A stretch of 64,000 nt of DNA from Stieleria maiorica (GTDB lineage Bacteria > Planctomycetota > Planctomycetia > Pirellulales > Pirellulaceae). Position numbers and translations under genes: made by a program. The DNA lies in the NCBI RefSeq assembly GCF_008035925.1, contig NZ_CP036264.1, positions 5,144,402 through 5,208,401 on the forward strand, given 5' to 3'. The notes under the pieces were generated by a model. It did no database searches. It was given only the letters and a program-made list of their open reading frames with translations, and was not told the origin of the DNA. Positions 48,461 through 54,221 of the stretch are shown here, in pieces. Numbering within the stretch: position 1 is the first letter of the stretch; each line of letters starts with the position of its first letter.

Positions 48461-50512
48461 ATGGTCGTGCGGCGATTCACAATCCATCTAAATCGGGGTG
48501 AAACCGTCCAGCCAACCAGTCCTCCCCCAGGAAGGGTCGAGCACGGCGGAGGGAAGGCTCACGCGACAGCCGCTTCGCGGTTGCTCGCCCTGACGTTCAT
48601 CCTCGCGTCAATTTTGGTTCTATACGCCCCCCTCGCTACCGCCGCCCCCGCCGAACCGACGCTCCAGCAGGCCCGCGAGGCGCGCGACGGCGGCAGGTAT
48701 TCGGAGGCGGCCGAACTGCTGATTCAGCTCGACGGTCAGTCGGATGCGGATCTGTCCGTCGATTTTGTGCTATTGGCACGCGCGGCCCAGGGACAGTTGG
48801 ATTCCGATCAACTCGACGATCTTTATTTGAAAGCAATCCAATCGCTCGCGGAACACGCCCCGACGCCCGAATCGGTCAACCGGCGTCTGCTGGTTCGAAC
48901 GTCGGCGGCCAGTCATTTCGCGGCCGGAAAACAGGACGAATTGGTGGCGACGACGCTGCTGCCTGCCTTCGACGAATTGAATCACGGCGCGTCCCCGCTG
49001 CCGGCGAGTCATCTGCAGCCGCTGATCCAGCTGGCGATGCGAACGGCCTGGCAGGCACTGACGCAGCAACGGCCGGCCGACGCCGAAGCGTTGTACCGCA
49101 AGCTGGTCGACCACTTTCGGCAAGCCAACGGCGATACGGTCGACACGGACCGGGCCTTGGCGATGCTGGGTCTGGGCTGGGCGACCGCGATGCAGCCCGA
49201 CCGGACGGCCGAGGCGGCGAGACGTTTGAAACAGTTTCTCGACGCGTATCCCACGCATCCCGACGCAGCGAGCGCCGCAGGGATGCGAATCACGTGCCTG
49301 CAGCGGGGCGATGACGCCGGACAAGTCGAACTCGCGATCGCGGATTTTCTTTCGCGTTGGCCGCGGAGCCGTCGCGCCGATGAGCTGGTGTTGGAGACAC
49401 TCCCCTCGAATCCACCCGACCGGACGTCGCCGCTGTGGGACATTCTCATTCACTGGGTGGTCCGGCAGGGTCAGCCGGGGCAATGGTCCGCCGAACTGGT
49501 CGGCCGGGCGTTACTCTTTGCCGGCCCCTCACTGCCGCCGCCACGATTCGATGAGCTTTTGAAACGACTGGCTGCGGCGGACGAAACGGGGCAGCGAGTG
49601 GCAGTCTTGTTGCACGACGCGGTCGAAGAGGGAAACGCGGGTTTTGCCGAACAGATCGCGGCGACGTTGATTTCCGGAGACCTCACGCAAGCGAGCAAGA
49701 TGGCACGCGAGTCGGCGTGCCGCTGGGCTGGCAGAACCGGCCGCTGGTCGATGCTGGCGTTGGCTGCAGAATCGACGGACCTGGAAGTGGAGGACGAACG
49801 CAGAACGGCGCACGTCGACCGGCTGTTTGCCGAAGCGTTAACGCAAACCGGCCGATCCCTCAGGGCAGCCCGATGGTGGGCCTATGTCGTCGACCATCAT
49901 GCCGCGACCGACTTCGCGACGCTGCTTCGCTGTGCCGAATCGGCGGTCGCGCACGCGGACGTCGCCCAAGCGGTGCGCCGACTGGACCGCGTCCGAGTCG
50001 CCTTGGAGGGAGCCGAAGCAGACGCTGCAGGAATTCAAACCGCGCTGGTGGATTTGTTGGCGGCCGATCTGGCGGTCCGGCAAGTCGACTTCGCAACCGC
50101 CCGATCGCTGTATGAAAAAGTCGTCCGCAGCGCAGACGCCACACCGGCTTTGCGTGGGCGTGCCCAGTGGATGATCGGAGAAACCCACTTGATGCAGCGC
50201 CAGTTGACCGAAGCGATCGAGAACTACCGCAAGGTCGAAGGGCTTGATCCCGGAGGCCCCTATGTTGCCGCGTCGCTGGTTCAAGCCGGCAAGTCGTTTG
50301 AGCAATTGGGGCTGACACGCGAGGCCGGAGATTGCTACTCAGCACTGCTGGGCCGTTTCGCCGACAGTTCGTACGCGACCGAAGCACGCCGCCGGATGGC
50401 CGTTTTGCCAGGGGTGCGTCGGTCATCGGGCAAACGATCACCAAGCGGCCGCCCCCCCGTCGGCTCCCCTTCCGACGATGCGTCTTTCGATTCCCCAATT
50501 TTGCGACGCTGA
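48461..50512 (+). CDS. Secreted or anchored TPR protein of the ExbB/ExbD operon
   Basis: 683 residues if started at ATG 48461 (start uncertain; ATG 48311 is also in frame). A hydrophobic export segment, LLALTFILASILVLYAPLATAAPA, lies at about residues 41-64. The mature part is an alpha-helical repeat protein, with TPR-like units clearest at the C-terminus (RGRAQWMIGETHLMQRQLTEAIENYRKVEG; AASLVQAGKSFEQLGLTREAGDCYSALL). The tail is Ser/Pro/Arg-rich. The ExbB-like gene begins 13 bases after the stop. This resembles Tol-Pal and other energised systems in which a periplasmic TPR protein accompanies the motor; a role as periplasmic partner is inferred. Confidence 0.8.
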   Translation: MVVRRFTIHLNRGETVQPTSPPPGRVEHGGGKAHATAASRLLALTFILASILVLYAPLATAAPAEPTLQQAREARDGGRYSEAAELLIQLDGQSDADLSVDFVLLARAAQGQLDSDQLDDLYLKAIQSLAEHAPTPESVNRRLLVRTSAASHFAAGKQDELVATTLLPAFDELNHGASPLPASHLQPLIQLAMRTAWQALTQQRPADAEALYRKLVDHFRQANGDTVDTDRALAMLGLGWATAMQPDRTAEAARRLKQFLDAYPTHPDAASAAGMRITCLQRGDDAGQVELAIADFLSRWPRSRRADELVLETLPSNPPDRTSPLWDILIHWVVRQGQPGQWSAELVGRALLFAGPSLPPPRFDELLKRLAAADETGQRVAVLLHDAVEEGNAGFAEQIAATLISGDLTQASKMARESACRWAGRTGRWSMLALAAESTDLEVEDERRTAHVDRLFAEALTQTGRSLRAARWWAYVVDHHAATDFATLLRCAESAVAHADVAQAVRRLDRVRVALEGAEADAAGIQTALVDLLAADLAVRQVDFATARSLYEKVVRSADATPALRGRAQWMIGETHLMQRQLTEAIENYRKVEGLDPGGPYVAASLVQAGKSFEQLGLTREAGDCYSALLGRFADSSYATEARRRMAVLPGVRRSSGKRSPSGRPPVGSPSDDASFDSPILRR

Positions 50513-50525
50513 ACCACGCCAACCG

Positions 50526-51641
50526 ATGACAGATTCTGCAAGCCGCCAACGATCGCCCCGAAAGCAGCGTTCCACCGTTCAACTTCGCCCGCCACGACAA
50601 CCGCGACGACTGGCCGGGTTGATTTCTCACGTGTTGCCCGTGGCCGTTTTGGCGATCGGCGTGTTGTGGTGGATGTCCACCATCAGTACCGCCCAAGCTC
50701 AGGTCGCCCAGCCGCAATTCTCGGCCGGCCAGATTCCGGCCAGCCAGTACGGCGGGCAATTTCAAAATGGCCGATATGGCAACCAACCCCAATACTCAGC
50801 GACACCGGGACAACCTGCGTTTCGCACCGCGATGCAACCGGGAACAGGCCAAGGTCAGGCGTCGGCGCTGCAGGGCGGCATCCCGGCCGTCCCCGCCACG
50901 GGGCCGGCGACGGAACAGATCGGGGCCGAGGGTAGCGCCGAGGACGACGCCGAAGCCGGCTGGTTTCAAACGCCCGCGTTGATCGGCAAGGTCATGTCGG
51001 GCGGATGGCTGATGATGCCGCTGGCGATCTGTTCGCTGGTCGTGTTGTCGCTGTCGTTTGAACGTCTGGTTGCACTTCGGCGTGGACGCGTGATCCCCCG
51101 CCCGTTCGTGCAGCGGTTCACCGAATGCGTTGAAGACGGCGTGCTCAGCTATGACGAAGCGACCGAATTGTGCAAAGAGTTTGACTGTCCGGTCAGCGAA
51201 GTCTTTCGAGCGGCACTGCGCCGTTGGGGACGCCCGATGTTCGAAATCGAACAAGCGGTGCTGGACGCGGGCGACCGCGTGTCCGATGGCTTGCGGAAAT
51301 ACCTACGCGTCTTTCACGCGATCAGCAACGTCGCGCCATTAATCGGGTTGCTGGGAACCGTGATCGGAATGATCGACGCCTTTGAAGTGATCAGTGACCA
51401 GAGTTCGATCGGACGCCCGGAGACCTTGGCCAGCGGAATCAGCATGGCATTGATGACCACCGCCGGCGGACTCGCCGTCGCCATCCCGGCCTACCTGGCT
51501 TACATGTATTTCAGCAGCAAATCGGATCGCTACCTGGGCGAGATCGAACGGCTGTGCCAACGCGTGATTGATTGCATTTCCGCCGAAGGACTCGAAGAAA
51601 ACGGCGGAGCGACGCGAAACAAACGACGTAAAGCAGCCTGA
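50526..51641 (+). CDS. MotA/TolQ/ExbB-family proton channel protein
   Basis: 371 residues from ATG 50526; an upstream ATG at 50478 overlaps the TPR gene. A first membrane segment (about 34-52) is followed by a 90-residue Gln/Pro/Gly-rich periplasmic segment. The ExbB core follows: GWLMMPLAICSLVVLSLSFERL, a cytoplasmic helical loop, then FHAISNVAPLIGLLGTVIGMIDAF and SGISMALMTTAGGLAVAIPAYLAYMYF. The last two helices are the proton-conducting pair of the family. It would form a pentameric motor with the ExbD-like protein. A 301-base gap with repeats lies between the two genes. The long N-terminal extension is unlike E. coli ExbB. Confidence 0.92.
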   Translation: MTDSASRQRSPRKQRSTVQLRPPRQPRRLAGLISHVLPVAVLAIGVLWWMSTISTAQAQVAQPQFSAGQIPASQYGGQFQNGRYGNQPQYSATPGQPAFRTAMQPGTGQGQASALQGGIPAVPATGPATEQIGAEGSAEDDAEAGWFQTPALIGKVMSGGWLMMPLAICSLVVLSLSFERLVALRRGRVIPRPFVQRFTECVEDGVLSYDEATELCKEFDCPVSEVFRAALRRWGRPMFEIEQAVLDAGDRVSDGLRKYLRVFHAISNVAPLIGLLGTVIGMIDAFEVISDQSSIGRPETLASGISMALMTTAGGLAVAIPAYLAYMYFSSKSDRYLGEIERLCQRVIDCISAEGLEENGGATRNKRRKAA

Positions 51642-51753
51642 GGTGTGGGACAGGCGTCCGGACGGTCACCTCCCCATCATTCTGCATTGCTATCTCCATC
51701 GTTCTGCCCCGAATCATTCTGCCTTCCCTCACATGCAAATCTCCCCGACACGT

Positions 51754-51895
51754 GCCGCTCGCTAACGCGTCCCGCTAGCATTTCTGCCCCATCGTTTTGC
51801 CCCCATCGTTTTGCCCTCATCGTTTTGCCCCCATCGTTTTGCCCCCATCGTTTTGCCCCCTCCAACCGCCGCTCGCTAACGCGTCCCGCTGGCAT
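51754..51895. repeat. Two 28-bp motifs flanking a 14-bp tandem array between exbB and exbD
   Basis: Near-identical 28-bp motifs (GCCGCTCGCTAACGCGTCCC then GCTAGCAT or GCTGGCAT) lie at 51754-51781 and 51868-51895. Between them, at 51790-51859, are five tandem 14-bp units of CATCGTTTTGCCCC, one with a C-to-T change. A related CCCATCGTTTTGCC occurs near 54454. The 28-bp motif also occurs inverted at 55643-55670. Confidence 0.9.
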
Positions 51896-51942
51896 CATCA
51901 CCCCCTATCGACTCGCGACTCGACTCGCGCATTTCAACTCCC

Positions 51943-52377
51943 ATGGCCAAACGCAATCGATCCAACGACGACGTGACGATCAACTTGACGCCGATGATCG
52001 ACGTCGTGTTCTTGCTGGTCATCTTCTTCATGGTCGGCAGCAAATTCAGCGAATCGGAAAGCCGCATCGACGTCTCGGTCCCTTCGGTCGGGCCGATGCA
52101 AGCGATCTCGCGCGTCCCCGATGAACGTGTGGTCGAGTTGACCGCCGAAGGAAATGTGTTGCTGGACGGACAGGCCGTCACCAACGAGCAGCTCGCCGAT
52201 GTCCTGGCGACCCAATTCGCCCAGTACCCGGATCTGAAGGTGGTCGTACGCGCCGACAGCGCGGGTTCACTGCAAGGCTTCGCGGAGACGATTCACACGG
52301 TCCGCCGCTCGGGTGTGGCTCAAATCGGGATCGCCGTCAAAGTGGATTCGGGCGGAAGCGGAGGGATGCTTCGTTGA
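51943..52377 (+). CDS. ExbD/TolR-family biopolymer transport protein
   Basis: 144 residues, normal for ExbD/TolR. A short cytoplasmic N-terminus is followed by a single membrane helix, INLTPMIDVVFLLVIFFMVGS, with the essential proton-binding Asp20. The periplasmic domain (about 45-140) has VPSVGPMQAISRVPDERVVELTAEGNVLLDG and LKVVVRADSAGSLQGFAETIHTVRRSG, the family dimerisation fold. It pairs with the ExbB-like protein to harness the proton motive force. Its stop overlaps the start of the toroid gene (TTGA). Confidence 0.95.
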   Translation: MAKRNRSNDDVTINLTPMIDVVFLLVIFFMVGSKFSESESRIDVSVPSVGPMQAISRVPDERVVELTAEGNVLLDGQAVTNEQLADVLATQFAQYPDLKVVVRADSAGSLQGFAETIHTVRRSGVAQIGIAVKVDSGGSGGMLR

Positions 52378-54221
52378 ACCTGATCGGTCAAATCACGGGG
52401 CTGTGGGACGATCCACGACTGATCTATGCCGTCGCGATTGTGGCGGTCATTCTGTTGGCGATCACAATTTGGTTGTTTCGCCGCGCCAAACGCGATGGAC
52501 GTGCCGCAGGAACGATTTGCCTGGTCCTGTCGGTGGCGTTGCATGCAGTTCTGATTTACCTGGTGCCGTACCAGGCAAACGACAACGGCGGATCGGCGAC
52601 GCACGAACTTGCTCCGGAGACGGACGGAGTGGAAGCGTTGACGTTTTCCACCTTCGATCCCGACTTGGCGGTCGACGACGCATCGGGCGACAGCGACAAC
52701 CCGGCGATCGAACCGTTGCCGGTGGCGGAGCTTCAGGACTTGTTGGCCGAGCCTTTTGACACCCCGGTTTTGGAAGCACCCGCCACGGACGCCGACACGC
52801 CGTCCCCGGTCGAGTCGATTGTCGAAACGATGCCGGAGTCATTGGCGGTCCCGTCTCAAGTGGAATCCGTCGCGGCGATCGACGCGATCACTCAGGCCCT
52901 CGATGCGTCGCTTGATCAATTGCTGCAATCTCAATTGGAGGTCGCCGACAGTCTCGCCGCGGCCGAAGTCCCCGACGAAACCGACACACCCGCCGCTGCC
53001 CCTTCGGATCCCTCCGTTGCTGCCGAACCGACACAACGGACAGTCGCTACGGATTCGGCCAAACCGTCGACCGAACCGATTCGGCCATCCGAACCGGTTG
53101 AGCGCACCGCAAGCACACGTGCTGCAGCGGCGGTCGTCCCGGGATCCGAAGAAGCCGACTTTGCCAACCGAGTCGGTGCGGCCAAACAGATGGCCATTGC
53201 ACAAACCGGCGGCGACGCACAGACCGAAGCGGCCGTGAAAGCCGCGCTTCGATTTCTGGCCGCGGCACAACGACGTGACGGCGCGTGGGATCCCCAAGCG
53301 TCCGGCGGCGGTGTCGATCGGATGCCGCTGGGCGAACGTCGGCCGGGCGCGGGCAGCAAGAGCACGACGGGGCTGACGGGGCTGTCGCTGCTGGCCATGA
53401 TGGGTGCCGGCAACACGCACCTTTCCGGCGACTATGCCGAAAACGTCTATCGCGGGTTGGCGTATCTGATTCAACACCAACATCCCGACGGATCACTCAG
53501 CGGTGACGCGACGGTCTATGCGGCCAGTTATTGTCACTCGATGGCGGCGCTGGCACTTTGCGAAGCCGCGGTGATGACGCAGGACAAATCGGCGATCGAA
53601 GCCTCCCGTCGTGCGATCGCCCACACCGTCCGCATGCAGCACCCGGTCACCGGCGGCTGGCGCTACACGCGCGGCGATCCCGGCGACCTCAGCCAGCTCG
53701 GTTGGCAAGCAATGGTGCTGGACGGAGGCAAACGGGCGGGGATTGCGATCCAGCGGGAATCGGTCGCGGGAGTAGCACGATTCTTACGCAGCGTTCGCGC
53801 CGGCAATGGCGGATTGGCGTGCTATCGTCCCGGTGAAGCGGTCAGCCGAACGATGACCGCCGAAGCCTTGGCGACGCGTTTGCTGATCGGGGAAGACGTC
53901 CCGCAAATCGAGATTGATGAAGCGGAACATTATCTGCTGGAATCCCTGCCGGGGATGCGGCAAGACAACTATTACTACTGGTACTACGCCTCGCTGGCGC
54001 TCCATCAGCTACAAGATGCGGCCTGGGAGCGCTGGAACGCCGCACTGAAAAACCGCTTGTTGGCGACGCAGCGCGCCGACGGCAGCTGGTCGGCGGACAC
54101 TGTCTGGGGCGGCTATGGAGGCACGGTGTACACGACGTCAATGGCCACGTTGTGTTTGGAATCCTACTACCGCCACGCCATCCGAAACGCCAACACCCGC
54201 ATCGCGGGTCGGCCGGAGTAG
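52374..54221 (+). CDS. Membrane-anchored prenyltransferase/squalene-cyclase-like toroid protein
   Basis: 615 residues starting at TTG 52374, overlapping the exbD stop by four bases. Two membrane segments (about residues 17-36 and 46-66) precede an acidic, Pro/Thr/Ala-rich linker (about 70-265) that would span the periplasm. The C-terminal half is built of prenyltransferase/squalene-oxidase repeats, for example AALRFLAAAQRRDGAWDPQA, GLAYLIQHQHPDGSLSG, HTVRMQHPVTGGWRY and NRLLATQRADGSWSADTVWG, with the QxxDGxW motif of alpha/alpha toroids. A cyclase DxDD motif was not seen, so catalysis is doubtful and a protein- or glycan-binding role is possible. In position and topology it replaces TonB or TolA as the motor partner. 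Confidence 0.88.
   Translation: MNLIGQITGLWDDPRLIYAVAIVAVILLAITIWLFRRAKRDGRAAGTICLVLSVALHAVLIYLVPYQANDNGGSATHELAPETDGVEALTFSTFDPDLAVDDASGDSDNPAIEPLPVAELQDLLAEPFDTPVLEAPATDADTPSPVESIVETMPESLAVPSQVESVAAIDAITQALDASLDQLLQSQLEVADSLAAAEVPDETDTPAAAPSDPSVAAEPTQRTVATDSAKPSTEPIRPSEPVERTASTRAAAAVVPGSEEADFANRVGAAKQMAIAQTGGDAQTEAAVKAALRFLAAAQRRDGAWDPQASGGGVDRMPLGERRPGAGSKSTTGLTGLSLLAMMGAGNTHLSGDYAENVYRGLAYLIQHQHPDGSLSGDATVYAASYCHSMAALALCEAAVMTQDKSAIEASRRAIAHTVRMQHPVTGGWRYTRGDPGDLSQLGWQAMVLDGGKRAGIAIQRESVAGVARFLRSVRAGNGGLACYRPGEAVSRTMTAEALATRLLIGEDVPQIEIDEAEHYLLESLPGMRQDNYYYWYYASLALHQLQDAAWERWNAALKNRLLATQRADGSWSADTVWGGYGGTVYTTSMATLCLESYYRHAIRNANTRIAGRPE

Follow-up and report, generated by a model that had tools for sequence, protein, structure and literature searches.

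The stretch analysed here, referred to as the window, comprises 64,000 nucleotides of Stieleria maiorica (contig NZ_CP036264.1, positions 5,144,402 to 5,208,401), whose genome of 9.9 Mb forms a single contig. Four genes on its plus strand encode a tetratricopeptide repeat (TPR) protein, an ExbB-like protein, an ExbD-like protein and a membrane-anchored protein ending in an alpha/alpha toroid, hereafter the toroid protein. The genes and junctions are as follows.

48461..50512, plus strand: TPR protein with a hydrophobic signal-like segment and a YbgF/CpoB-like C-terminal part (Pfam TPR_16, 6e-9)
50526..51641, plus strand: ExbB/TolQ-like motor subunit with a signal-like N-terminal segment and a low-complexity extension of ~100 residues (MotA_ExbB, 2.8e-29)
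51787..51860, plus strand: 14-base tandem repeat CCCCATCGTTTTGC, 5.3 copies, inside the gap between the ExbB and ExbD genes
51943..52377, plus strand: ExbD/TolR-like motor subunit with channel aspartate D20 (Pfam ExbD, 5e-23)
52374..52377, plus strand: TTGA overlap of the ExbD stop and the toroid-protein start
52374..54221, plus strand: two-helix, linker and toroid protein of 615 residues, a candidate force-transducing arm (open reading frame, motif and structure model)

The four co-oriented genes, the 13-base spacing between the TPR and ExbB genes and the TTGA overlap described in a first-pass annotation of this DNA are confirmed, and the same overlap is present in six of eight relatives compared (loci L039, L040, L041, L042, L044 and L045). 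That annotation left out a spacing of 301 bases between the ExbB and ExbD genes, the length of which differs among relatives. A promoter scan found none, as compared with 1.1 expected. The nearest named relatives of the toroid protein are found in Rhodopirellula sp. JC639 (88% identity), Rhodopirellula sp. SM50 (81%) and Stieleria sedimenti (80%).

The gene order is conserved among relatives; a lack of such conservation, named at first pass as a refutation, is not observed. At 28 close-relative loci, taken from named genomes and picked by the toroid only, the toroid gene is accompanied by genes for the TPR protein (23 loci), ExbB (24, one a fragment) and ExbD (25), and every missing gene falls past a contig end. 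Among 20 family- and order-level loci chosen from 46 genomes, the ExbB, ExbD and toroid genes are consecutive in all 20, and the TPR gene joins them in 16. A survey of 147 genomes of the order, each at least 90% complete, revealed one motor-type toroid at E 1e-150 or better in 124 of them; among the ExbD matches listed, at least 119 of these 124 toroids have one upstream of them, on their own strand and no more than 2.5 kb away, and the median distance between the two matches is 67 bases. All 124 toroids entered this count, which left out 25 listed ExbD matches; these are weaker second matches that lie at a distance from the toroid or on a different contig, and none shares a contig with a toroid counted as non-adjacent. 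One of the five toroids so counted, in genome G045, overlaps its ExbD match by four bases and, on our reading, is truly adjacent. The other 23 genomes of the order have no toroid at E 1e-150, some of them containing weaker matches (G050 and G052).

Both motor subunits exceed the Pfam cut-offs (MotA_ExbB and ExbD) and carry the channel Thr/Thr/Pro and Asp expected of the motor family. ExbB residues T278, T312 and P321 are each kept in 45 of 45 aligned proteins, and ExbD D20 in 47 of 47. Residue S170 of ExbB, which by the E. coli spacing we take to occupy the position of E. coli ExbB Ser34, is kept as Ser in 39 of the 45 proteins, the remaining 6 having Cys. The best NCBIfam models for the two subunits are tolQ (9e-25) and tolR, both under cut-off. 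In the same vein, the TPR protein matches tol_pal_ybgF at 4e-15 with 56.5 bits, under the cut-off of 90.1, and its equivalent at locus L104 reaches 168 bits for the YbgF type, summed over seven stretches and above cut-off. The long periplasmic insert attributed to ExbB in the first-pass annotation exists as an extension, which is located N-terminal of the first core helix and follows a signal-peptide-like segment, as read from the sequence. In this layout it resembles the 'long' ExbB of Serratia, which has a signal sequence and an N-terminal periplasmic extension and works with HasB/TonB (PMC9008036). Across the genome, one TonB_C protein stands against eight MotA_ExbB matches, which we count in favour of a force-generating machine at this locus.

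The toroid protein was modelled with AlphaFold2 from 24 sequences (the window and named genomes), giving a whole-chain mean pLDDT (predicted local distance difference test) of 69. The following elements, all on the plus strand, are distinguished.

52413..52481, plus strand: helix 1, residues 14–36 (AlphaFold2 model); the Arg/Lys-rich loop behind it is taken to be cytoplasmic
52491..52571, plus strand: helix 2, residues 40–66, TonB/TolA-like (AlphaFold2 model and alignment)
52530..52544, plus strand: Ser53-x3-His57, the Ser-His half of the SHLS motif (alignment and control)
52572..53168, plus strand: linker, residues 67–265, acidic and Pro/Ala-rich (composition and AlphaFold2)
52638..52655, plus strand: strand-like LTFSTF after helix 2, at the position of the TonB/TolA 'motor box'
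53169..54182, plus strand: alpha/alpha toroid, residues 266–603, with QW-like repeats (AlphaFold2 and Foldseek)

The SHLS motif was defined by cryo-electron microscopy, in which TonB Ser16 and His20 contact ExbB Ser34 and Trp38 (PMC12215075). The first-pass annotation had suggested testing the first helix of the toroid protein for the motor-contact residues. Helix 1 is ruled out as this contact, as the alignment contains no Ser-x3-His column there; the motif resides in helix 2, where His57 is kept in 25 of 25 and Ser53 in 24 of 25 aligned motor-linked toroid proteins, the protein of L077 having Ala. As a control, open reading frames of at least 150 residues were collected from the window and 55 loci by a greedy pick with a GC filter, and divided by a toroid profile into toroid and non-toroid sets. 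Ser-x3-His occurs in 9 of 569 helices from the 519 non-toroid frames, one of the nine belonging to the genome's true TonB (SLFVHAVGAAVL), as compared with 40 of the 50 toroid frames. Ten toroid frames fall outside the 40: four have no predicted helix, L105 has no motif, L078, L082 and L088 present Ser-x3-His in a sub-threshold helix, and L077 and L104 bear Ala-x3-His. Ser- or Ala-x3-His is therefore found in 45 of 46 helix-bearing toroid frames, a tally of homologous proteins and not of independent events. Taken together, the gene order kept across relatives and this control indicate that the four-gene arrangement is beyond chance.

Beyond helix 2, the linker is modelled at pLDDT below 50 for most of its length, with a helix at residues 165–194. 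For 16 of 25 proteins, as against 5.5 expected by position alone, the strongest beta window falls in the initial 45 residues of the linker; in TonB and TolA the 'motor box' strand comes after the helix (PMC12204202). The loop between the helices, TRWG-like in relatives from the order, is Arg/Lys-rich and the flanking outer stretches are acidic, so that the positive-inside rule predicts a cytoplasmic loop and a periplasmic toroid. The TonB/TolA-type topology suggested at first pass is supported by the modelled disordered linker and the predicted periplasmic head, but the protein has two helices instead of one; a soluble cytoplasmic toroid, which had been named as a refutation, is not what the prediction gives. 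Whole-profile matches to TolA structures in the PDB (E 5e-4) were discounted, the alignment running through the low-complexity linker.

The toroid itself is modelled mostly at pLDDT ~90, with lower values near residues 311–330 and 471–490. It just passes the Pfam model SQHop_cyclase_C (PF13243; 1.3e-6, 28.2 bits against a cut-off of 26.1), and its top Foldseek matches in the PDB are single-domain squalene-hopene-cyclase-like proteins (E 3e-5; TM-score ~0.6 by target length, root-mean-square deviation 6–7). Further matches include the transaldolase AprG, type II terpene cyclases, a complement C4 fragment and a GH76 mannanase. An alternative is that the toroid acts enzymatically in the periplasm, in the manner of terpene cyclases/prenyltransferases or of sugar-acting toroids, and that the motor would merely position or recycle it. 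The AprG and GH76 neighbours speak for it, as do residues beside the QW-type repeats that recur among 57 toroids from across the phylum: Y386 (57), H388 (49), D438 (54), S440 (54), Y534 (56), Y537 (55) and T588 (56), with W444 (55) in the same setting. By comparison, the position which we take to align with the second Asp of the cyclase DxDD is T493 in the window; 56 of 57 toroids have T, A, S, P, V or G in this column, and the next residue is M in 41. The preceding position 492 is Glu in 12 of the 57 toroids. Four of the 57 toroid domains contain a DxDD string somewhere, and the window toroid has none, in agreement with the earlier remark that no such motif was visible; clear catalytic cyclase residues, which had been named as a refutation, were thus not seen. 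The NCBIfam cyclase models also score far under cut-off (TIGR01507, 36.5 bits against 431.1), and a TonB-like helix would be needless for a soluble enzyme. On balance we consider an enzyme unlikely. Hopene cyclase in particular is rejected, as none of eight matches in the genome passes TIGR01507 and the place inferred for the DxDD acid is taken by other residues.

Comparisons at the level of sequence establish a conserved operon, a predicted motor with its channel residues, a TonB/TolA-type motif and a toroid head that appears to lack the cyclase acid. In our judgement the operon probably encodes a Tol/Ton-type force transducer driven by the proton motive force, with the toroid as its distal domain. 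Most likely, the toroid replaces the TolA/TonB head and serves Tol-like work in the envelope rather than catalysis. The toroid protein is set apart from the TonB/TolA family by its different head and its extra helix; being TonB/TolA-like at the motor end, it is best described as a variant of such force transducers and not as a TonB or TolA member.

The first-pass annotation knew of no comparable described system. The closest precedent is the group of TonB/TolA-like transducers with vWA heads, proposed in 2025 for bacteria of the Planctomycetes–Verrucomicrobia–Chlamydiae group and encoded downstream of TPR, tolQ and tolR genes (PMC12204202). Both systems have TPR, tolQ-like and tolR-like genes upstream, and an SHLS-type helix, a strand or strand-like segment, a linker and a head other than that of TonB; in contrast, the operon described here has a toroid as the head, one tolR instead of two, and two helices instead of one. 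The words 'toroid' and 'squalene' are absent from the main text of that paper, and squalene is not mentioned in the available text of a paper on motor evolution (PMC12505986). No toroid protein with an ExbB/ExbD motor appeared in titles or abstract openings among the literature matches listed, which were mostly open-access and included no preprints. Pfam and Foldseek gave no vWA head in the window toroid protein, and none of the 10 proteins checked near the other motors of the genome, one of them TonB itself, contains vWA.

Our comparison further reveals that the operon resembles Tol-Pal (TolQ-TolR-TolA-TolB-Pal-CpoB) in its motor genes, with tolQ and tolR as best models albeit under cut-off, in its YbgF/CpoB-like TPR protein and, in one class, in a propeller fusion. 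Unlike Tol-Pal, it has no TolA C-terminal domain and neither tolB nor pal among its four genes, and the toroid protein has an extra helix and a head of another fold. With TonB-ExbB-ExbD it shares the motor family, the Ser-x3-His helix and the disordered linker, whereas it lacks TonB_C, and the genome encodes a separate TonB. The head has the fold and QW-like repeats of squalene-hopene cyclase and related toroids, but, unlike squalene-hopene cyclase, it is a single toroid with no acid at the inferred DxDD position, anchored to the membrane and encoded in a motor operon.

Under the force-transducer model, we infer that the motor moves the toroid. Helix 2 would dock against the outer face of the ExbB pentamer, with Ser53 and His57 making the contact near ExbB Ser170. 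Proton flow through T278, T312 and D20 would drive a movement passed down the linker, and the periplasmic toroid may grip an envelope partner (an outer-membrane protein, a lipoprotein or a glycan) through its conserved aromatic and polar residues, while the TPR protein would link the machine to the cell wall. Planctomycetes are reported to keep only a largely reduced Tol-Pal set (PMC8871954) and to lack FtsZ (PMC5147048), which raises the question of how the outer membrane is energised and kept stable in these bacteria. The conserved operon, in which a motor is combined with a new head, offers a direct handle on it through one residue (His57) and one domain. If correct, the model would assign a likely function to the many proteins matched by models of squalene cyclase, and the arrangement suggests a mode of force transmission through the cell envelope that has yet to be described.

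Toroids of this type extend beyond the order. Matches at E 1e-80 are present in 115 of 199 genomes of the phylum, from 18 of which 20 loci were inspected. Locus L104 contains a complete operon outside the order. In a tree of 57 toroids, one set of 27 (support 100/99) brings together every one of the 6 ExbD-linked toroids and 21 of the 23 that are linked to ExbBD. L070 and L104 are motor-linked at other places, such that ExbBD-linked toroids occur in three separate places, a scatter that may reflect repeated gains or one gain with losses. L070 (1600-15172) is a second TPR-ExbB-ExbD-toroid operon of the genome that contains the window; downstream of it come a DUF7450 gene, another MotA_ExbB protein and two genes for which Pfam gave no match.

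Several observations weigh against a force transducer. Neither ExbB nor ExbD adjoins the toroid at 13 of the 20 phylum-level loci. At the six loci of family f21 (L095-L099 and L101), ExbD alone adjoins a two-helix toroid, no ExbB being adjacent, and at L098 another ExbB-ExbD set lies ~3 kb further up. The full SHLS motif (S-x3-H-x6-L-x3-S) is absent from the window protein and the other ExbBD-linked proteins listed, in which the Leu and Ser are not both kept; all four residues are present in L068 and L071, where no motor adjoins, and in L095, where ExbD does. Helix 1 has no counterpart in TonB/TolA, a profile of the helix 2 region gave no match in the PDB at E 10, and the strongest beta window falls later in the linker in 9 of 25 proteins. 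In ExbB, the position that by the E. coli spacing we take to be that of the TonB-contacting Trp is a plain hydrophobic residue, and the Trp is not kept. Finally, the conserved polar residues of the toroid would suit an enzyme as well.

An alternative role for the toroid is that of a sensor, which would report a periplasmic ligand through the helix to the cytoplasm and be reset by the motor, as in TonB-linked signalling. Five toroid proteins of one family, each with a Ser-x3-His helix, match the anti-sigma-type domain zf-HC2 in their N-terminal part, three of them over the Pfam cut-off:

L111:4176-6728, zf-HC2 toroid protein
L111:11288-13195, zf-HC2 toroid protein
L112:6760-9414, zf-HC2 toroid protein
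L112:4130-6013, zf-HC2 toroid protein
L113:4206-6881, zf-HC2 toroid protein

An extracytoplasmic function (ECF) sigma gene (L068:5855-6577) also lies downstream of a single-helix toroid gene on the same strand. These zinc-finger members, however, have no adjoining motor gene, and the motor-linked proteins have a short inter-helix loop and no predicted cytoplasmic domain, which makes a sensor improbable for the operon. That the toroid protein is a passive scaffold in a motor operon, its Ser-x3-His reflecting helix packing unrelated to force, might be argued from the missing half of SHLS, but is very hard to reconcile with the same rare motif in toroids without adjoining motor genes and in the genome's true TonB, or with ExbBD-linked toroids at three separate places on the tree.

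Returning to the force transducer, a propeller-bearing class gives it further Tol-like company. A PD40 propeller stands N-terminal to helix 1 of the toroid-operon protein, behind ExbB-ExbD and at least the end of a TPR gene, at four loci:

L104:6011-9820, propeller-bearing transducer
L140:7080-12176, propeller-bearing transducer
L142:1541-4033, propeller-bearing transducer, ending at the contig end before the toroid
L143:2-2968, propeller-bearing transducer, ending at the contig end before the toroid

Helix 2 is Ala-x3-His in all four. The best NCBIfam models for the propeller are of the CHU_0125 and PorE types in L104, L140 and L142, under cut-off, and the matches to TolB in L104 and L140 are weak and under cut-off; PorE has been proposed to tether the outer membrane to the wall (PMC12204202). 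If periplasmic like TolB, a propeller ahead of helix 1 would agree with an N-out topology. A fifth genome of the L104 class, at L141, yields a fragment with a visible toroid and no PD40.

Single-helix toroids with the same Ser-x3-His motif occur elsewhere in the phylum, some of them being fused to the anti-sigma-type zinc finger. It is conceivable, though we lean somewhat against it, that in Planctomycetota a toroid replaced the TolA/TonB head and grew into phylum-wide motor-driven arms, comprising one Tol-like machine together with single-helix arms that borrow the motor in trans, some of them wired to anti-sigma domains, such that proton force, envelope upkeep and transcription would meet. 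The neighbours of the single-helix toroids in the genome (seven proteins: a YTV protein, COX3/COX4, cytochrome c, ECF sigma, DHQ synthase and one unmatched) have no common theme; the toroid at L067:10065-11948 adjoins the YTV-repeat protein and that at L069:4759-6510 adjoins COX3/COX4. The toroid protein at L103:3672-6035 has a TonB-like Glu-Pro/Lys-Pro linker, which matches a TonB model weakly (E 0.007, under cut-off), and ends in C-terminal HEAT repeats.

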